Shown here in pieces: positions 1 to 13,118 of a DNA stretch of 14,128 bases. The notes below the pieces were generated by a model. That model worked only from the letters and a program-made list of their open reading frames with translations. It was not told the origin of the DNA and did not search any database. The DNA is from Chloroflexota bacterium. GTDB taxonomy: Bacteria; Chloroflexota; Chloroflexia; JAMDCE01. The translations under genes and the position numbers were made by a program. The stretch lies in the NCBI GenBank assembly GCA_023489135.1, contig JAMDCE010000568.1:5434-19561 (forward strand). Reading direction: 5' to 3'. The stretch's first letter is position 1. The number at the start of each line of letters is the position of its first letter.

Positions 1-816
1 AGCGCCATAGGGGTCGTTGGCGTCATCGCGGCCGGGTTGTCGTCCAACAACAAGTACTCGCTCCTGGGCGCCTTTCGCGCCGCGGCGCAGATGGTCTCTT
101 ACGAGATTCCGATGATACTGGCTCTGATCAGCGGGGCTATGCTGGCGGGAACCCTGTCACTTGGCGGCATCGTGAGGGCGCAGGAGCACTTCTGGCTTGT
201 GCTCCTGCAGCCTCTGGGCTTTGCCATCTACTTCGTTTGCGCTCTCGCCGAGACGAACCGCAACCCCTTCGACCTGCCGGAGGCGGAGTCGGAGCTGGTG
301 GCCGGGTACCTGACCGAGTACAGCGGGATTCGCTGGGCGATGTTCTTCCTGGGCGAATACGGCAATATGATCATCGTGTCGGCCATAGCCACCACCCTCT
401 TCCTCGGCGGGTGGCAGGGGCCGATTCTGCCGGGAGTGATCTGGTTCCTGGGCAAGACCTACCTGCTGCTGTTCGTGTTCATCTGGCTGCGGTCCACGCT
501 TCCGCGGCTTCGCGCCGATCAGCTCATGGAGTTTTGCTGGAAAGGGCTGATACCCCTGGCCCTGTTCAACGTGGCCATCTCGGCGCTGATCGTCCTGCTC
601 TTGCCCGGCAACTACATCCTGCCGCTCACGGCGGTCAACTGGGTGCTGCTCGCCGTCTTGATCCTTTTCGGACGGCGCCTGGTGTACCGCTCCATCGGAT
701 TCAATCGATCCGAGCGCATGGCCCGGCCGCAATTGCCACCGCGGAGAATAGCCGGCAGCCCTCGATTGGACGTGGGACTGACCGCCGCGGACGGGAATGG
801 AGGCAAACCATGCTAG
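1..816 (+). CDS. nuoH: NADH-quinone oxidoreductase subunit H (NuoH), 5'-truncated by window
   Basis: This is the membrane subunit of complex I that lies next to the quinone chamber and links the peripheral arm to the proton-pumping arm. The frame is open from base 1, so the gene starts upstream; a TTG at 37 is internal. The first visible residues include SSNNKYSLLGAFRAAAQMVS followed by YEIP, a NuoH signature. The acidic loop AETNRNPFDLPEAESELVAG and the following YLTEYSG, another signature of the family, are intact. Several hydrophobic membrane segments follow. The conserved Trp that usually precedes SSNNKY is Leu here. The C-terminus carries about 40 polar residues after the last membrane segment, longer than usual. 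The stop overlaps the next gene by 7 bp, so the two are probably translationally coupled. Family assignment is firm; whether the complex uses NADH is doubtful given the genes downstream. Confidence 0.95.
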   Translation, partial: SAIGVVGVIAAGLSSNNKYSLLGAFRAAAQMVSYEIPMILALISGAMLAGTLSLGGIVRAQEHFWLVLLQPLGFAIYFVCALAETNRNPFDLPEAESELVAGYLTEYSGIRWAMFFLGEYGNMIIVSAIATTLFLGGWQGPILPGVIWFLGKTYLLLFVFIWLRSTLPRLRADQLMEFCWKGLIPLALFNVAISALIVLLLPGNYILPLTAVNWVLLAVLILFGRRLVYRSIGFNRSERMARPQLPPRRIAGSPRLDVGLTAADGNGGKPC

Positions 817-1406
817 GCATATTGCAGGGGATGAAGGTCACCCTGGAGCACGCCTTCCGGAAGAAGATAACCCACGTATATCCTTACGAGAAGCCGCGGC
901 TTCCTGAGCGCAGCCGCGGGCTCATCCAGCTAATCCGCGAGCCCGAAACCGGGGTCTTGAAGTGCGAGGCGTGCCTGCTGTGTGAGAAGGTCTGTCCGCC
1001 TCGAGCCATCACCATCTCCTACCGCTTCCGAAACGCCTTTCGGCGGCGGCCGCTTTTCCGCCCCCGGACTCAGAGCGCCTTCTACCGGCCGCGAATGTCG
1101 ACCCCCGCACCTTACCAGGGGCGGCCCGCGTCGTTCGTGTTCGATCTTCCGGATCCCTCGGCCGCGCCCGAAAACACGGATGAACTGGTCGAGCGGATAC
1201 TGGCCGGTTCTAAGCCGGACGCCGATGTAATGGAGATGCTGGAGGCAGTTCAGGATGCCGTCGGCTACCTGCCACAGCAAGCCGCACGGCGCATATCCGA
1301 TTCGCGACAACTGCCGATGTACGACCTGTACGCTCTGGCCACGCTCAATCCTTCCCTCAGGCTCACCCCTGAAGGAAATGGGATCGGAGGCGGCGATGGC
1401 AGATAA
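810..1406 (+). CDS. NuoI N-terminal half fused to cysteine-less NuoE-like helical domain
   Basis: A 198-residue hybrid iron-sulfur protein of a complex I-like operon. ATG 810 follows GGAGG (799-803) and overlaps nuoH by 7 bp. Residues 1-70 match the start of NuoI: an amphipathic N-terminus, a YPYEKPRLPERSRG stretch, then one [4Fe-4S] motif with C52, C55, C58, C62 and Pro63, equivalent to half of the N6a/N6b pair. The second CxxCxxCxxxCP that every ordinary NuoI has is absent. A basic, aromatic linker follows, and residues about 125-198 resemble the N-terminal helical part of NuoE (DELVERIL, EAVQDAVGYLP, YDLYALATLNPSLRL). The protein ends where NuoE would begin its thioredoxin-like [2Fe-2S] domain, so cluster N1a has no ligands. 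Domain recognition is from motif reading. The missing NuoI half is found at the C-terminus of the 2697-5069 product. Confidence 0.85.
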   Translation: MLGILQGMKVTLEHAFRKKITHVYPYEKPRLPERSRGLIQLIREPETGVLKCEACLLCEKVCPPRAITISYRFRNAFRRRPLFRPRTQSAFYRPRMSTPAPYQGRPASFVFDLPDPSAAPENTDELVERILAGSKPDADVMEMLEAVQDAVGYLPQQAARRISDSRQLPMYDLYALATLNPSLRLTPEGNGIGGGDGR

Positions 1407-2700
1407 AGATTTCCGCCCGGTAATCCTCGCGGGATGCGGGTCCGTCGATCCGGAGAGCATCGATTCCTACATTTCCAACGGCGGATACTCCGCCTTGCGC
1501 ATGGCTCTCTCCGATTCGACTCCGGAAAGCGTGATCGCGCGCGTGGAGGAGGCCGGCCTGCGGGGAAGAGACGGGGGATTCCCGGTAGCTCGAAAGTGGC
1601 GAATAACCAGGGAGGCGGAGGGAGACCACAGGTTCGTGGTGGCCAACGCCTACGATGCCGATCCCCTGTCGCCCATCGGGCGCACTTTGCTCGAGCAGAT
1701 GCCTCATCGGGTTCTCGAAGGAACGATCATCGCCGCCTACGCCATCGGCGCCGACGAGGGTATCATCTACTGCCGGGGCGACGGCAAGACGGCCGTGTAC
1801 CGCGTGCGCCGGGCCATCGCCCAGGCTGAAGAGAAGGGCTTTCTGGGTCCTAACGCCCTGGGTTTCGGCCGGGGCCTCAGAGTGCGCCTCGCGCTGGGCT
1901 GGGCCGGATTCATAGGGGGAGAGGAAACCGCGGCGATAGCGGCCATAGAGGGTCGCCGGGCCATGCCGACGCAGCGGCCACCTTTCCCCGCGCAGAGCGG
2001 CCTGTTGAAGCTGCCCACCGCCCTCGACTCCGCCGAGACGCTCGCCATCATCCCCTCCATTGCCGGCGCCGGACGGACTGTCGACGTATCTCGGTCTGCC
2101 GGCACCAAGGTATTCTCGATCCAAGGAAGCGTGCGAAACCAAGGGTTGATCGAGCTGCCGCTGGGGCTGAGCCTCCGCCGGATGATCGACCACGCGGGCG
2201 GGACAAGCCGGGGTACGGTGAAGGCGGTGCAGAGCGGCGGGCCGACCGGGGCATGCATACCGGCCGATGCTTTGGATAGCCCGATAAGCTTTGAGTCGCT
2301 GCCGGAGCTGGGCACCCGTATGGGATCGGGCCGAATCGAGGTTCTGGACGACTCCGTGTGCCTGGTCGGCTTCGCCGGAAGGGTGATGAGCTACCTCAAG
2401 GACGAGGCCTGCGGAAAGTGCGTCCCGTGTCGGCTGGGCACCAAGCGAATGGCCGGGATAGTGGAAGCCATAGCCAGTGGATTGGGCCAGGCAAGCGACC
2501 TTGAGCTACTGGAAGACCTTTCGGCTAACGTATCGGCCGCCTCCATCTGCGGGTTCGGGGTGGCCGCACCCTGCGTGGTGACCTCGACCCTCAAGCACTT
2601 TCGTGGCGAGTACTTGAGCCACACAGAGGAGAAGAAATGCCCCACCGGCGAGTGCCGGCCCAGCAGGCAGCACAGCTATCAGAGGAGGAAGGTACTGTGA
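1396..2700 (+). CDS. nuoF: NuoF-like subunit with altered FMN/NADH site
   Basis: A 434-residue homologue of NuoF, the complex I subunit that normally binds NADH, FMN and cluster N3. ATG 1396 has GGAGG at 1386-1390 and overlaps the previous gene by 11 bp; a longer frame from 1255 would lie wholly inside that gene. The N3 ligands are present: C339, C342 and C345 in EACGKCVPCR, and C385 in SICGFG. The GEET of the flavin site and the PPFPAQSGLL segment are also kept. The glycine-rich loop, usually RGRGGAGFPTGLKW, reads RGRDGGFPVARKW (from R56), one residue shorter and with Asp in place of Gly. The usual CNADESEPG reads ANAYDADPL, and AYICGEE reads GFIGGEE. FMN or NADH binding may therefore be weakened or lost, while N3 electron transfer looks possible. 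The C-terminal tail contains CPTGEC. Family assignment is firm; loss of NADH oxidation is inference. Confidence 0.9.
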   Translation: MADKDFRPVILAGCGSVDPESIDSYISNGGYSALRMALSDSTPESVIARVEEAGLRGRDGGFPVARKWRITREAEGDHRFVVANAYDADPLSPIGRTLLEQMPHRVLEGTIIAAYAIGADEGIIYCRGDGKTAVYRVRRAIAQAEEKGFLGPNALGFGRGLRVRLALGWAGFIGGEETAAIAAIEGRRAMPTQRPPFPAQSGLLKLPTALDSAETLAIIPSIAGAGRTVDVSRSAGTKVFSIQGSVRNQGLIELPLGLSLRRMIDHAGGTSRGTVKAVQSGGPTGACIPADALDSPISFESLPELGTRMGSGRIEVLDDSVCLVGFAGRVMSYLKDEACGKCVPCRLGTKRMAGIVEAIASGLGQASDLELLEDLSANVSAASICGFGVAAPCVVTSTLKHFRGEYLSHTEEKKCPTGECRPSRQHSYQRRKVL

Positions 2701-5069
2701 GCGAGCTGCGGCACATGGAGCACGAGACGGTAGGCCCCGGCTTCGAGGGACGGGCCACGGTGAGCCTGAACATCGACGGCCGCGACGTTCAGGGCCCGGC
2801 GGGCTACAGCGTCCTCGAAATCGCACAGATGGCAGGGATCGAGATACCCACTCTCTGCAGCGACGAGAAGCTCGAATCGATGGGCGGCTGTCGAATGTGC
2901 CTGGTGGAGATCGAAGGACGGGATCGCCCGCTGCCTTCTTGCAGCACCGTGGCCGAGGAAGGCATGGTGGTGCAGACCGCTACCGACAGGTTGAAGTCCA
3001 TCCGGCGCATGGTTCTGGAGTTCATGCTTTCGGATCACAATGCCTATTGCCAGCCGCCCTGTCAGATAGGCTGCCCGACCCACATCGACATTCCCGGCTA
3101 CCTGGAGCTGATCGTGGCCGGCGACTACCGGGGAGCGGCGCGCCTGGTCAAGGAAGTCCTTCCCTTCCCCTATACCCTCGGGCTGGTTTGTCCCCGCCCT
3201 TGCGAGAACGTCTGCCGCCGCAAGCTGGTCGAAGAAGAGATATCGATCTGCCAGTGTCACGGCTACGCCGGGGAGAGCGCGCTCGAAGATCCCCCAACCC
3301 CCTGGCCGCAGGAGCCGCCCACGGGCAGGCGTGTCGCGGTCATCGGCGCCGGTCCGGCCGGACTCAGCGCGGCCTATTACCTGGCCCTGAGGGGTCACTC
3401 GGTCAAGGTCTTCGAGGCGCTGCCGAAGCCGGGCGGGATGCTGCGGTACGGGATTCCGGAGTACCGCTTGCCCAAGGCCATGCTGGACCAGGAGTTTAAT
3501 TGCGTGTGGAACCTCGGCGTGGAGCTGGAGTGCAACGCCAGGCTGGGAAAGGACTTCAGCATCGACGATCTCTTCGCCCAGGGCTTCGAAGCCGTCTTCC
3601 TCGGCCTCGGCGCTCATCGCAGCAACGAGCTGGGAGCCGAGGGGGAGCACCTGCCGGGGGTGTGGCACGCCATCGATATGCTGCGCCGGGTCCAGCTGGG
3701 AGAGAAGGTTGAGATCGGCCGCCGGGTGGTGGTCATCGGCGGAGGCTTCACCGCCTTCGACGCCGCCCGCACCTCCAAGAGGCTGGGCGCCGAGGAGGTG
3801 ACCGTGGTTTACCGGCGGTCGCGCAAGGAGATGGGCGCCCACCCTACCGAGGTCGACGACGCGGAGCACGAAGGGGTGCGGCTGGAGATCCTGGCCGGCC
3901 CGCTGCGCGTGGTGGAGAAGGATGGCCGGGCCGCTGGCGTGGAGCTCATCCGCATGCAACTGGGCGAACCGGACGCCCGAGGGCGCCGGTCGCCGGTTCC
4001 GGTTCCGGGCTCCGAGTTCATCGTCGAGGCCGAGTCGGTCATCGCCGCCATCGGACAGATTCCCAATCTGGATTGCCTCCAGAACGAGCGCGATGTCGAG
4101 GAGAGCCAGCGTCATACCATCGTCGTCGATCCGGACAGCTACTATACCGGTCGCCGGGGGGTATTCGCCGGCGGGGATGCCACCCTGGGCGCTTCGACGG
4201 TGATTCAGTCGGTGGCCTGCGGGAAACGAGCGGCCAAAGTCATCCACCTCTATCTGCAGGGCGAGGACATGGCGGAGGCGGCCGGCCGTCTCAAGCTCGA
4301 CGAAGTGAAGCCCGACCTCATCGACATCGTGCCCTACAAGCCGGCGTGGCCCAAGGTTCAAATGCCGATGCTCCCTTACGAGCAGCGCCGGCACAACTTC
4401 AAGCTGATCGAGCTGGGATACTCCGAGGAACAGGTCCGGAAGGAGGCCGCTCGCTGCCTGCAATGCGCCTGCCCGGCGGCCGGGCGCTGCCATCTCCAAA
4501 GACTGTCCATCGAACACGGACTGACGGATAATCGCTTCCACAACGGGGAAGCGCGCGATTACCACGACTACGAGCCGGACGTGTCCCACAGCTTCATCCT
4601 GCGCGATCCCAACAAGTGCATCAACTGCACCCAGTGCGTCCGGATGTGCCGGGACGTCATCGGCCCCAACTGCTATGGTCTGATGGGCCACGGTTTCGAT
4701 AGCATCGTCACCACCCCGTTCAACGCCTCCCTCAACGATAGCGACTGCGTCTCCTGCGGCGCCTGCGCCGAGACCTGCCCCACAGGGGCTCTCATGCTGC
4801 GAGAGCGCGACCTGGAATACTACGACCTGGATTACTCCCGCTGCATCTTCTGTGGAGACTGCGTGGAGGTCTGCCCTCACGGCGCGTTGGGCGAGACCCC
4901 CAACTTCGAGCTGGCACGCTACGAACGATTCGACCAGATGGTGCTCGACAAGGACCAGCTCGCGGATGCCCCCAGCTACACGGTCCCCAAGACGCCACCA
5001 CGACAGGTAGACGATTCGAACCTATCGTCGGTGGTGAGGCCGCTCGAGCCCAGGGGCTGGCGGGAGTAG
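2697..5069 (+). CDS. NuoG-type Fe-S / GltD-type FAD-NAD(P) oxidoreductase fusion with NuoI C-terminal half
   Basis: A 790-residue cytoplasmic electron-transfer protein. The GTG start overlaps the nuoF stop as GTGA, and AGGAGG lies at 2683-2688; an in-frame ATG at 2637 is less likely. Domains in order: a NuoG/hydrogenase-type [2Fe-2S] domain (C54, C65, C68, C82); a GltD-type Fe-S domain (C118, C122, C126, C165, C169, C173); a FAD Rossmann fold (GAGPAGLS, 217-224); an NAD(P) Rossmann fold (GGGFTA, 348-353); a flavin-closing segment FAGGDATLG; a cysteine cluster at C587, C590, C592 and C598 followed by HLQ, like the NuoG N5 site; two ferredoxin motifs at 641-651 and 684-694; and a last [4Fe-4S] motif at 716-726. 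The end, RCIFCGDCVEVCPHGAL then PNFELARYERFDQMVLDKDQ, closely resembles the second half of NuoI. It probably passes electrons between NAD(P)H and the complex I chain; direction and partner are inference. Confidence 0.88.
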   Translation: MSELRHMEHETVGPGFEGRATVSLNIDGRDVQGPAGYSVLEIAQMAGIEIPTLCSDEKLESMGGCRMCLVEIEGRDRPLPSCSTVAEEGMVVQTATDRLKSIRRMVLEFMLSDHNAYCQPPCQIGCPTHIDIPGYLELIVAGDYRGAARLVKEVLPFPYTLGLVCPRPCENVCRRKLVEEEISICQCHGYAGESALEDPPTPWPQEPPTGRRVAVIGAGPAGLSAAYYLALRGHSVKVFEALPKPGGMLRYGIPEYRLPKAMLDQEFNCVWNLGVELECNARLGKDFSIDDLFAQGFEAVFLGLGAHRSNELGAEGEHLPGVWHAIDMLRRVQLGEKVEIGRRVVVIGGGFTAFDAARTSKRLGAEEVTVVYRRSRKEMGAHPTEVDDAEHEGVRLEILAGPLRVVEKDGRAAGVELIRMQLGEPDARGRRSPVPVPGSEFIVEAESVIAAIGQIPNLDCLQNERDVEESQRHTIVVDPDSYYTGRRGVFAGGDATLGASTVIQSVACGKRAAKVIHLYLQGEDMAEAAGRLKLDEVKPDLIDIVPYKPAWPKVQMPMLPYEQRRHNFKLIELGYSEEQVRKEAARCLQCACPAAGRCHLQRLSIEHGLTDNRFHNGEARDYHDYEPDVSHSFILRDPNKCINCTQCVRMCRDVIGPNCYGLMGHGFDSIVTTPFNASLNDSDCVSCGACAETCPTGALMLRERDLEYYDLDYSRCIFCGDCVEVCPHGALGETPNFELARYERFDQMVLDKDQLADAPSYTVPKTPPRQVDDSNLSSVVRPLEPRGWRE

Positions 5070-11198: not shown

Positions 11199-13118
11199 TT
11201 GATCCGGCTCCTGGCGCCACTTGCTGTGGTTGTGTTTCTTCTCCCCTCAGTTGGGAGGGCCCAAGCTTCTGCCTATTCGGCGTACAAGTTGCCCGTGCCG
11301 GCCGGGCAGTCGATTTACTTAACCCAAGGGAACAGTAGCAGCTACAACCATACCTCGGCAAACGGGAGCGAGTGGGCGTTCGACTTCGCCACCAGAGGCA
11401 ACAAGCCATTTGATGTTGTTGCCTCTAGAGGTGGAAAAGTGATCGGGGCTCGGACAGACTCATCAGTCCAGTGTTCGGAGGCGAACCGCAAAACGGACGG
11501 CACGGAACTAAAAGGGTGCTGGAAGGAGGCCAACTTCGTCCTGATCGATCATGGGGACGGGACCTCTGCTCTGTATCTACATCTCGAGAAGGATTCGGTT
11601 CTGACAAGCGAGGGCAAAGAGGTAAGACGAGGGGAGCCAATTGCCACCGCTGGCGCTACAGGTTGGTCCGAGGTAATACACCTGCATTTTCAGGTCGAGA
11701 CGACGCCTTCACTGCAGGCCCAGAACGATAAGCCTAAAGGCTGGTGGTGGAACGAGTCGGTGGGAATCTCGTTCTCCGACAAAGACGTGCTGGCCAAGCG
11801 CTCCAACGGGGTGCCCACCAAGGACTCTAGCCCCTACGTCTCGGACAATTCTCCCTCCAGTGTCCCCGTCCCCGGAGGGGTGTGGATAAGCCCATCAGAC
11901 CGCAGCAACCTTGTACAGCCGTCCCTGCATTTTGCCGCCCGTGCCTACACCGCCAATCCGGGCGACCCGGAGATCGATCGTGTCAATTTCACCGCTTGGT
12001 GGCCATCTCTTGGGCAAAAGACCAGCCCATGGAAGATTGCCTGCACAGCCAATCAGGCGTCGTCTGGCGATACATACGAGTGCGATGTTGATCTCGCCAA
12101 GATAGGGGCTATCCCAGGGGAACTGCGGGTGTCGTTCGATGTCTACAATCGAGATGGAATCAAGAACCTTTCGCCAAACGGTGAGCGAATCGTGACATAC
12201 AAATTGGCCACGCCAACACCGCCACCCCTGCCAAGCAGCACCCCAACCGTTGCACCGACTCTGGCGCAACCCAATATTATCACGGCTACACCCACAGGCC
12301 CTGCTCCTTCCTGGAGGGTAGTATATCAAGCTGATTGGTCAGGCGGACCGGATAGTTGGACCGGCGATCGGGCCTGGCGCGTGGCGGATGGCATGTTGGT
12401 CAACGACGGGACAAGTATCGACTGGCTCAAAGGTATCACGGCGCCTTACGTTCCAGATGTCGCCGATTATGCGGTCGAGGCAGAGATCCGGCAGGTGAAC
12501 GATAGCGGCTGTATGAGCTACGGGATAATTGGTCGCCAGCGGCTGGAGAACGGCTGGGGCATCCATGCCGGTTTCATGGGGTGCGGAGGAGCGGTAGAAA
12601 GAACCAGCACCTGGTCAGGCGCTCGATCAGCGCCCGGCACCGGCGCTTACCTGCAAGCCAGAGACAACGGGAATGGGGCGATTGCCCGATTCAATGCGGG
12701 CCAAAGCTGGCACACTTATCGGCTGGAAATCATAGGTGCCAATCTGCGGTTGCTCGTCGACGGTTCGGTCACGCTGGAGCTTACAGATAACCACTTCCCG
12801 TCCCCCGGACGGGTAGGTATTTGGAGCGACAGGATACAGACCCAGATACGCAGCTTCAGGGTGTTAGTATCTTCCAGTGCAGTCCCTAGTACTACTCCAA
12901 CACCGCCCATACCTATTCCTTCAACCACCGTGACGACTCCTACCGCTACAGGTTTTGGCCAGGCCCCGGTTGTTGCGCACAGCGTGGGAGGCCGCGCGGA
13001 TTGCACCGTATGTCATTTTGTGGGAGCACCTGGCGTGGGACAGCCTGGCGGTCTTGGCATTCCGCCAAACCACCGTGGCCGCACCAACAATCAGTGTTTC
13101 GACTGCCATCCAAGATAA
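11199..13118 (+). CDS. Secreted M23-like peptidase / concanavalin-like / diheme cytochrome c fusion
   Basis: 639 residues from TTG 11199, with AGGA at 11188-11191. A signal peptide (LLAPLAVVVFLLPSVGRAQA) directs export. Residues about 30-190 form an M23/LytM-type metallopeptidase domain: H51 and D62 (in EWAFDF) and the H161-L-H163 pair in a GATGWSEVIHLHFQV segment fit the zinc site of peptidoglycan endopeptidases. A beta-rich region (about 230-330) and a Thr/Pro linker follow. Residues about 370-552 resemble the concanavalin-like fold of DUF1080/LamG proteins (SWHTYRLEI, LRLLVDGS, GRVGIWSD). After a second Thr/Pro linker the last 45 residues carry two heme c motifs, CTVCH (602-606) and CFDCH (633-637), with extra histidines in VVAHSV and PPNHRGR as possible axial ligands. 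Each module is clear by motif; the combined role, perhaps a wall-bound redox protein, is inference. Confidence 0.85.
   Translation: MIRLLAPLAVVVFLLPSVGRAQASAYSAYKLPVPAGQSIYLTQGNSSSYNHTSANGSEWAFDFATRGNKPFDVVASRGGKVIGARTDSSVQCSEANRKTDGTELKGCWKEANFVLIDHGDGTSALYLHLEKDSVLTSEGKEVRRGEPIATAGATGWSEVIHLHFQVETTPSLQAQNDKPKGWWWNESVGISFSDKDVLAKRSNGVPTKDSSPYVSDNSPSSVPVPGGVWISPSDRSNLVQPSLHFAARAYTANPGDPEIDRVNFTAWWPSLGQKTSPWKIACTANQASSGDTYECDVDLAKIGAIPGELRVSFDVYNRDGIKNLSPNGERIVTYKLATPTPPPLPSSTPTVAPTLAQPNIITATPTGPAPSWRVVYQADWSGGPDSWTGDRAWRVADGMLVNDGTSIDWLKGITAPYVPDVADYAVEAEIRQVNDSGCMSYGIIGRQRLENGWGIHAGFMGCGGAVERTSTWSGARSAPGTGAYLQARDNGNGAIARFNAGQSWHTYRLEIIGANLRLLVDGSVTLELTDNHFPSPGRVGIWSDRIQTQIRSFRVLVSSSAVPSTTPTPPIPIPSTTVTTPTATGFGQAPVVAHSVGGRADCTVCHFVGAPGVGQPGGLGIPPNHRGRTNNQCFDCHPR

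Follow-up and report, generated by a model that had tools for sequence, protein, structure and literature searches.

A split NuoI ferredoxin in a probable complex I variant of Chloroflexota

Can NuoI, the ferredoxin subunit that canonical complex I (NDH-1, nuoA-N) carries as one chain with both CxxCxxCxxxCP motifs, be divided between two proteins? NuoI is regarded as an invariable core component of complex I, and the question is raised by a stretch of 14,128 nucleotides from a Chloroflexota bacterium (contig JAMDCE010000568.1, positions 5,434 to 19,561 of the forward strand), hereafter the window. A first-pass annotation had proposed that the product of 810..1406 is the N-terminal half of NuoI with one motif, that the product of 2697..5069 ends in the second half, and that one subunit was divided, its halves being attached to a NuoE-like and a NuoG/GltD piece. 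In this study, complementary profile matches and a recurring gene order support these proposals. The two proteins are called IE and GI below. As a whole, the explanation that we favour is a real and conserved complex I variant of Chloroflexota, and we consider it likely. The following genes and domains are concerned:

1..816, plus strand: 3' part of nuoH (gene cut at the window edge), a quinone-site membrane subunit; PF00146, 2.5e-84.
810..1406, plus strand: IE, NuoI first half plus NuoE-like helical domain, 198 aa; TIGR01971, PF01257.
963..998, plus strand: CxxCxxCxxxCP motif of the NuoI first half (C52-P63; C52, C55, C58, C62).
1167..1379, plus strand: NuoE/HydC-like helical domain, without thioredoxin part or N1a ligands; HydC 8a6t_C, 9bov_C.
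1396..2700, plus strand: nuoF (protein F), StnB-like, with altered nucleotide motif and N3 cysteines present; 9bov_B, 8oh5_B, motif tallies.
2697..5069, plus strand: GI, NuoG-type [2Fe-2S] domain, GltD-type FAD/NAD(P) domain, NuoG/HydA-type iron-sulfur motifs and NuoI second half.
2754..2984, plus strand: [2Fe-2S] domain of GI, N1b-like (C54, C65, C68, C82); PF13510, 2.9e-20.
3045..4265, plus strand: GltD-like FAD/NAD(P) domain with its N-terminal iron-sulfur part; PF14691, PF07992, 5jca_L.
4455..4490, plus strand: CxxCxC...C motif, by alignment the N5 / StnC C5-like cluster; the same motif is aligned in StnC.
4617..4778, plus strand: HydA/StnC-type Fer4 pair, motif A (C641-C651) and motif B (C684-C694); TIGR02512 at 634-702, StnC alignment.
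4800..4967, plus strand: NuoI second half, motif C (C716-C726) and C-terminal tail; TIGR01971 69-121 of 121, NdhI 6hum_I 4.4e-13.

IE has a single CxxCxxCxxxCP motif and no second one in its 198 aa. The NuoI model TIGR01971 matches it at model positions 1-72 of 121 (54.1 bits), and its profile, compared with solved structures, matches the first half of NuoI chains (best 7.7e-17). GI, a 790-aa open reading frame with a GTG start whose end reads RCIFCGDCVEVCPHGAL...NFELARYERF, supplies the complementary part. TIGR01971 matches it with 65.9 bits over two stretches, the better of which places residues 702-755 at positions 69-121, and its tail matches the second half of NdhI/NuoI chains among solved structures (best 4.4e-13). 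When the halves were joined artificially, the NuoI model was covered end to end (1-121) with 107.3 bits, while a control join using the stretch with GI motif B instead reached 85.2 bits over 1-102. All four cysteines of the IE motif, including the remote one, are kept in 76 of 76 sequences, and those of the GI half motif (motif C) in 54 of the 55 GI sequences of at least 700 aa that were tallied. The lone exception (L029) lacks the half-motif cysteines as well as the other ferredoxin cysteines, and the half is present in another open frame of the same genome. A sequencing break, a pseudogene or chance was ruled out as the origin of the split, since all 76 sequences that have an IE frame show the same division.

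How widespread is this arrangement? At E 1e-3, IE had 319 protein matches and the C-terminal part of GI had 1391, 120 of each being listed; the weaker matches may be other ferredoxins. Among GTDB contigs, 69 of 95 candidate stretches encode an IE relative, and these loci are titled as Chloroflexota lineages except for two labelled Proteobacteria (L025, L066). An IE frame of at least 100 aa was present in 76 of 77 loci examined (exception L069), and in one genome (G067) the IE gene reads in two frames. Ninety-nine of 400 sampled Chloroflexota genomes matched IE at 1e-15. Two of these matches (G258, G082) were ordinary NuoI and were dropped, which leaves 97, 41 of them forming a divergent group; at most seven candidates were scored per genome, so that 97 carriers may be a low count. 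Split NuoI is thus found in about a quarter of the sampled Chloroflexota genomes. Ktedonobacter racemifer, Thermogemmatispora carboxidivorans and Dictyobacter kobayashii are among the named carriers of the split genes, and such strains make the proposed variant testable.

Does the split set belong to complex I? In the window, nuoH precedes IE, nuoF sits between the IE and GI genes, and the frames overlap end to start. The same gene order was found in relatives: among 69 loci and the window, counting those with room, IE is followed by F in all 61 cases and F by GI in all 55, and nuoB, nuoD or nuoH lies directly upstream of IE in 65 of the 67 loci with at least 600 bp before IE. The observed layouts are B-IE-F-GI (Ktedonobacteria and others), B-D-IE-F-GI and A-B-C-D-H-IE-F-GI (L001), and the window order agrees with the latter as far as it is visible. 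In the divergent group, three loci (L136, L139, L140) have the single-operon order A-B-C-D-H-IE-F-GI-J-K-L-M-N with IE in the usual place of nuoI, and L134, L137, L138 and L141 show part of it. Between GI and J, up to 2 kb of other sequence is present in L136, L140 and L141, and little in L139.

Relatives have the membrane arm (A, H, J, K, L, M, N) in their genomes, in part at separate loci. For the B-D type, the surroundings of NuoH in 15 genomes contain A-C-H-J-K-L-M-N or part of it and no I (L102 has no A match; L110, L117 and L118 end before N). In these genomes, which have no NuoI over cut-off, tblastn borders put H and J no more than 225 bp apart, too little for a nuoI gene. Since B, D, E, F, G and I gave no match in the 15 membrane-arm loci (E, F and G were searched there, not genome-wide), their evident partner is IE-F-GI together with B and D. 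Among Ktedonobacteria, three genomes yielded a separate A-C-D-H operon and five a second J-K-L-M-N operon, which the L001 genome has as well. Split-type NuoB of relatives carries the tandem cysteines of N2 in the six sequences examined, and the NuoD end is complex I-like in four. As these NuoB and NuoD sequences of relatives are of complex I type, a NiFe hydrogenase in place of complex I was ruled out. In a NuoH tree of 53 rows the window falls into a 22-row clade (21 split-type rows and the lone L094; support 100/98) that stands apart from the canonical NuoH rows. L001 is sister to the window NuoH with weak support (88/64), and the single-operon divergent group forms a clade of its own. L094 (9783-11030) is a lone extra NuoH of Ktedonobacteria bacterium brp13 inside the split-type clade.

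What feeds electrons into this complex? Apart from the NuoI halves, the three proteins resemble the Stn (Sporomusa-type Nfn) transhydrogenase StnABC (8OH5), GI being similar to StnC, F to StnB and the NuoE part of IE to StnA. GI matches StnC with 594 bits over residues 21-723 (8oh5_C, chain to 696 of 1172) and 9bov_A with 611 bits. Like StnC, it combines a NuoG-type [2Fe-2S] domain, GltD and NuoG-type clusters in one chain, and it has forms of both GltD-insertion motifs (the first at 114-127, a near form of the second at 587-598); YRRSRKEM of GI lines up with YRRTIDEM of StnC. The match stops where StnC passes into its FdhF-like domain: this C-terminal part is absent from GI, and the second half of NuoI stands in its place. 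In comparison with complex I, NuoG is thus replaced by a NuoG-GltD protein ending in half of NuoI. The GltD part is well conserved among relatives, and the GI profile matches the NfnI subunit 5jca_L at 2.1e-109. The [2Fe-2S] cysteines C54, C65, C68 and C82 are each present in 55 of 55 GI sequences, and those of the CxxCxC...C motif in 54 or 55 of 55. StnC Lys170 is described as a C7 ligand in one state (PMC10482914); its place is occupied in GI by H188 (window 3258-3260), which is invariant in a 21-row GI alignment. C659 (window 4671-4673), just past motif A, is kept in 54 of 55 GI sequences and absent from the aligned StnC chains. In four Dictyobacter loci GI repeats lie side by side (L046 12172-19756, L027 12198-17171, L040 12173-17118, L068 12170-18389), and the repeated frames hold three matches to the NuoI second half in G011 and two in G012.

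In IE of the window type, NuoE is cut down to helices. PF01257 matches positions 10-65 of 145 with 23.9 bits, slightly below the cut-off of 24.8, and the helical part resembles HydC (8a6t_C and 9bov_C, 4e-11 each) and a StnA-like chain (8oh5_A, 4.6e-09); AlphaFold predicts residues 121-190 with pLDDT values of 83-94 per block of ten. The thioredoxin-like domain of NuoE was not found in IE, given the limited PF01257 match, nor were N1a ligands, as apart from the four motif cysteines no cysteine column reaches half of the 76 sequences. From its sequence, IE of the divergent L136, L137 and L140 is read as extending into the rest of NuoE, with the second cluster-cysteine pair missing.

F is closer to StnB (9bov_B 406 bits, 8oh5_B 398.7 bits) than to Thermus Nqo1 (2fug_1, 268.8 bits). 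It matches StnB at 105-529 of 584 only, and the N-terminal thioredoxin-like and C-terminal ferredoxin-like domains of StnB are absent from it. The residues of the NuoF motif N-x-D-E-x-E-P matter for NADH/FMN binding. In all 63 NuoF sequences tallied the D of this motif is replaced (by Y in 59, M in three and I in one), the following E is D, G or A, and the second E is D. As all 63 sequences carry an altered nucleotide motif, the main donor may be NADPH, acting at the GltD domain. We favour NADPH as main donor at the GltD FAD, at about even odds. That NADH at NuoF is the main donor instead, with GltD as an accessory or regulatory transhydrogenase site, is possible but doubtful. Such a role for NuoF is favoured by the EE pair, present in 63 of 63, by retention of most of the glycine loop and by the complete set of N3 CxxCxxC cysteines in 56 of 63; the changed D, the loss of the middle N3 cysteine (to Ala, Thr or Ser) in the remaining seven (L134, L136-L141, all of the divergent group) and the lack of conserved N1a ligands in IE speak against it. 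In the window NuoF the glycine loop is shortened and altered (GRDG-GF). C415 and C420 of NuoF line up with StnB cysteines and are kept in 62 of 63.

We propose that the window encodes the electron-input end of the Chloroflexota complex I variant, in which NuoI is divided at the loop that joins its two ferredoxin halves: IE carries the first of them, fused to a NuoE remnant, and the second forms the tail of the StnC-like GI. Most likely, electrons would enter from NADPH at the GltD FAD, run through the NuoG-type clusters of GI to the split NuoI, and leave the rebuilt ferredoxin for N2 in NuoB and finally quinone. The site in NuoF may be reduced or altered. Protons would be pumped by the membrane arm, whose genes lie in the same operon or elsewhere. 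In Stn, electrons of NADPH are described as running from the GltD FAD along C7-C6-C5-C4-C3, the C2-C1 branch being a non-functional remnant (PMC10482914).

Which ferredoxin motifs would pair in this scheme? Motifs A and B of GI align with a motif pair in StnC, and the TIGR02512 match at 634-702 covers most of both. A and B therefore most likely pair with each other, judging from the alignment, which leaves the motif of IE along with motif C. Two-cluster ferredoxins use the fourth cysteine of each motif to ligate the cluster of the other motif, so that IE and GI, once docked, would share both clusters, each being held by three cysteines of one chain and a fourth from the other. The two chains must then probably meet to rebuild the electron path to quinone. 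That a Chloroflexota complex I lineage was rewired to NADPH through a Stn-derived module, with the last two clusters before N2 ligated across chains and the ferredoxin split at its pseudo-twofold axis, is plausible as a history, and we advance it with some reserve.

A complete nuoI elsewhere in the genome would speak against a divided subunit. On this point the outcome was mixed: over the curated cut-off, 14 of 76 genomes carry an intact copy, which goes against the proposal, and 62 of 76 have none, which agrees with it. The 76 genomes are relatives, many of them metagenome assemblies, and the window's own genome is not among them. Intact NuoI was found in 11 of the 12 genomes of one set (all but G010), in 3 of 24 of another and in 0 of 41 divergent-group genomes; G010, without NuoI over cut-off, belongs to both the 12- and the 24-genome set. 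At the four loci examined (L070, L071, L100, L115) the intact gene lies in a canonical operon. A second J-K-L-M-N operon lacking I is present in the six intact-NuoI genomes whose L, M and N genes were searched, and in these the split set can thus constitute a second complex. In the divergent group, weak NuoI matches spanning both motifs led to nine loci (L165-L172, L176), none of which was accepted as a hidden intact NuoI. L165 and L170 adjoin a D homologue with a NiFe-type RICGIC motif; L166, L167, L168, L171 and L176 lie in a distant cluster of C, D, two-motif ferredoxin, B and M-type genes (RICGIC was not found in L166, L167, L168 and L171); and L169 and L172 adjoin genes read as HdrA-like. 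In some divergent genomes, a second and distant complex I-like cluster thus holds a two-motif ferredoxin that scores below the NuoI cut-off.

Several observations weigh against a split NuoI working in complex I. An intact NuoI stands beside the split set in 11 of the 12 genomes first searched, and the NuoI cut-off is strict: 7 of 14 control genomes exceed it, whereas 11-13 match. The artificially joined halves also stay under this cut-off (107.3 vs 113.05 bits). The alignment of GI with StnC extends into the beginning of motif C, a place at which the cysteines of StnC are different ones; in the GltD loop GI has GGGF and StnC has GGGN; and the second E-to-D change in NuoF is common to StnB, so that only part of the NuoF change is specific to this family. 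The AlphaFold models have too low pLDDT to bear on docking, both in the cluster region of IE (blocks of about 47-53) and in GI 610-790 (below 50). Furthermore, motifs B and C of GI fit the one-chain two-motif ferredoxin model NF009053 (residues 680-746, 2.8e-16). Their 21-residue spacing is typical of compact two-cluster ferredoxins. They might therefore form a ferredoxin of their own, the IE motif being clusterless or paired with motif A. We consider this improbable: the motif pair of StnC is aligned with A and B, motif C bears a NuoI-like tail, and the IE motif keeps its four cysteines, the remote one among them, throughout.

The split proteins could also form a soluble Stn-like transhydrogenase that merely adjoins nuo genes and acts outside complex I. 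GI, F and the NuoE-like piece are all nearest to Stn/HydBC proteins, the Ktedonobacteria cluster comprises only B-IE-F-GI, and two Ktedonobacteraceae loci (L041 with IE-F, L048 with IE-F-GI) lack nuoB, nuoD or nuoH just upstream, a further point against the complex I variant. The general linkage to these three genes (all other loci with sufficient upstream sequence), the single operon with nuo genes in the divergent group, the 15 membrane-arm loci, whose evident partner is IE-F-GI with B and D, and the retention of both NuoI halves make a soluble enzyme very unlikely.

How does the split complex I variant compare with described systems? With complex I it shares A, B, C, D, H, J, K, L, M and N in relatives, the tandem cysteines of NuoB, NuoD/NuoH and the operon order; from Stn it differs by its linkage to complex I membrane and quinone-site genes. 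Among the literature searched, the nearest described system is Nuo-Bfu (PMC9304861), a complex I predicted to have 14 subunits and a bifurcating BfuABC module, in which the NADH module is likewise swapped for a HydABC-related one. It was described from Deferribacteres, Proteobacteria, Planctomycetes and Nitrospirae, and the main text of PMC9304861 does not mention NuoI. The 11-subunit complex I of Desulfitobacterium, described as lacking NuoEFG, similarly joins the core to a different electron input (PMC11238625); unlike the variant discussed here, with its Stn-like module and split NuoI, it has no NADH module. The first-pass annotation did not recognise the layout as a described complex I variant, and no description of a split NuoI was found in titles and abstract beginnings of the literature covered, a scope that leaves out preprints and most subscription papers.

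The split form suggests that the wire of complex I can be rebuilt from two chains, and it offers a natural test case for cross-chain [4Fe-4S] ligation and for the exchange of electron-input modules. With NADPH as donor, the NADPH pool of these bacteria would be coupled to proton pumping.

The remainder of the window, 3' of GI, encodes a glycosyl hydrolase-like protein, an Nramp transporter, a universal stress protein and others with no evident link to complex I. The product of 11199-13118 is M23 peptidase-like; it also shows weak similarity to sugar hydrolases and may have a CXXCH region at its end.

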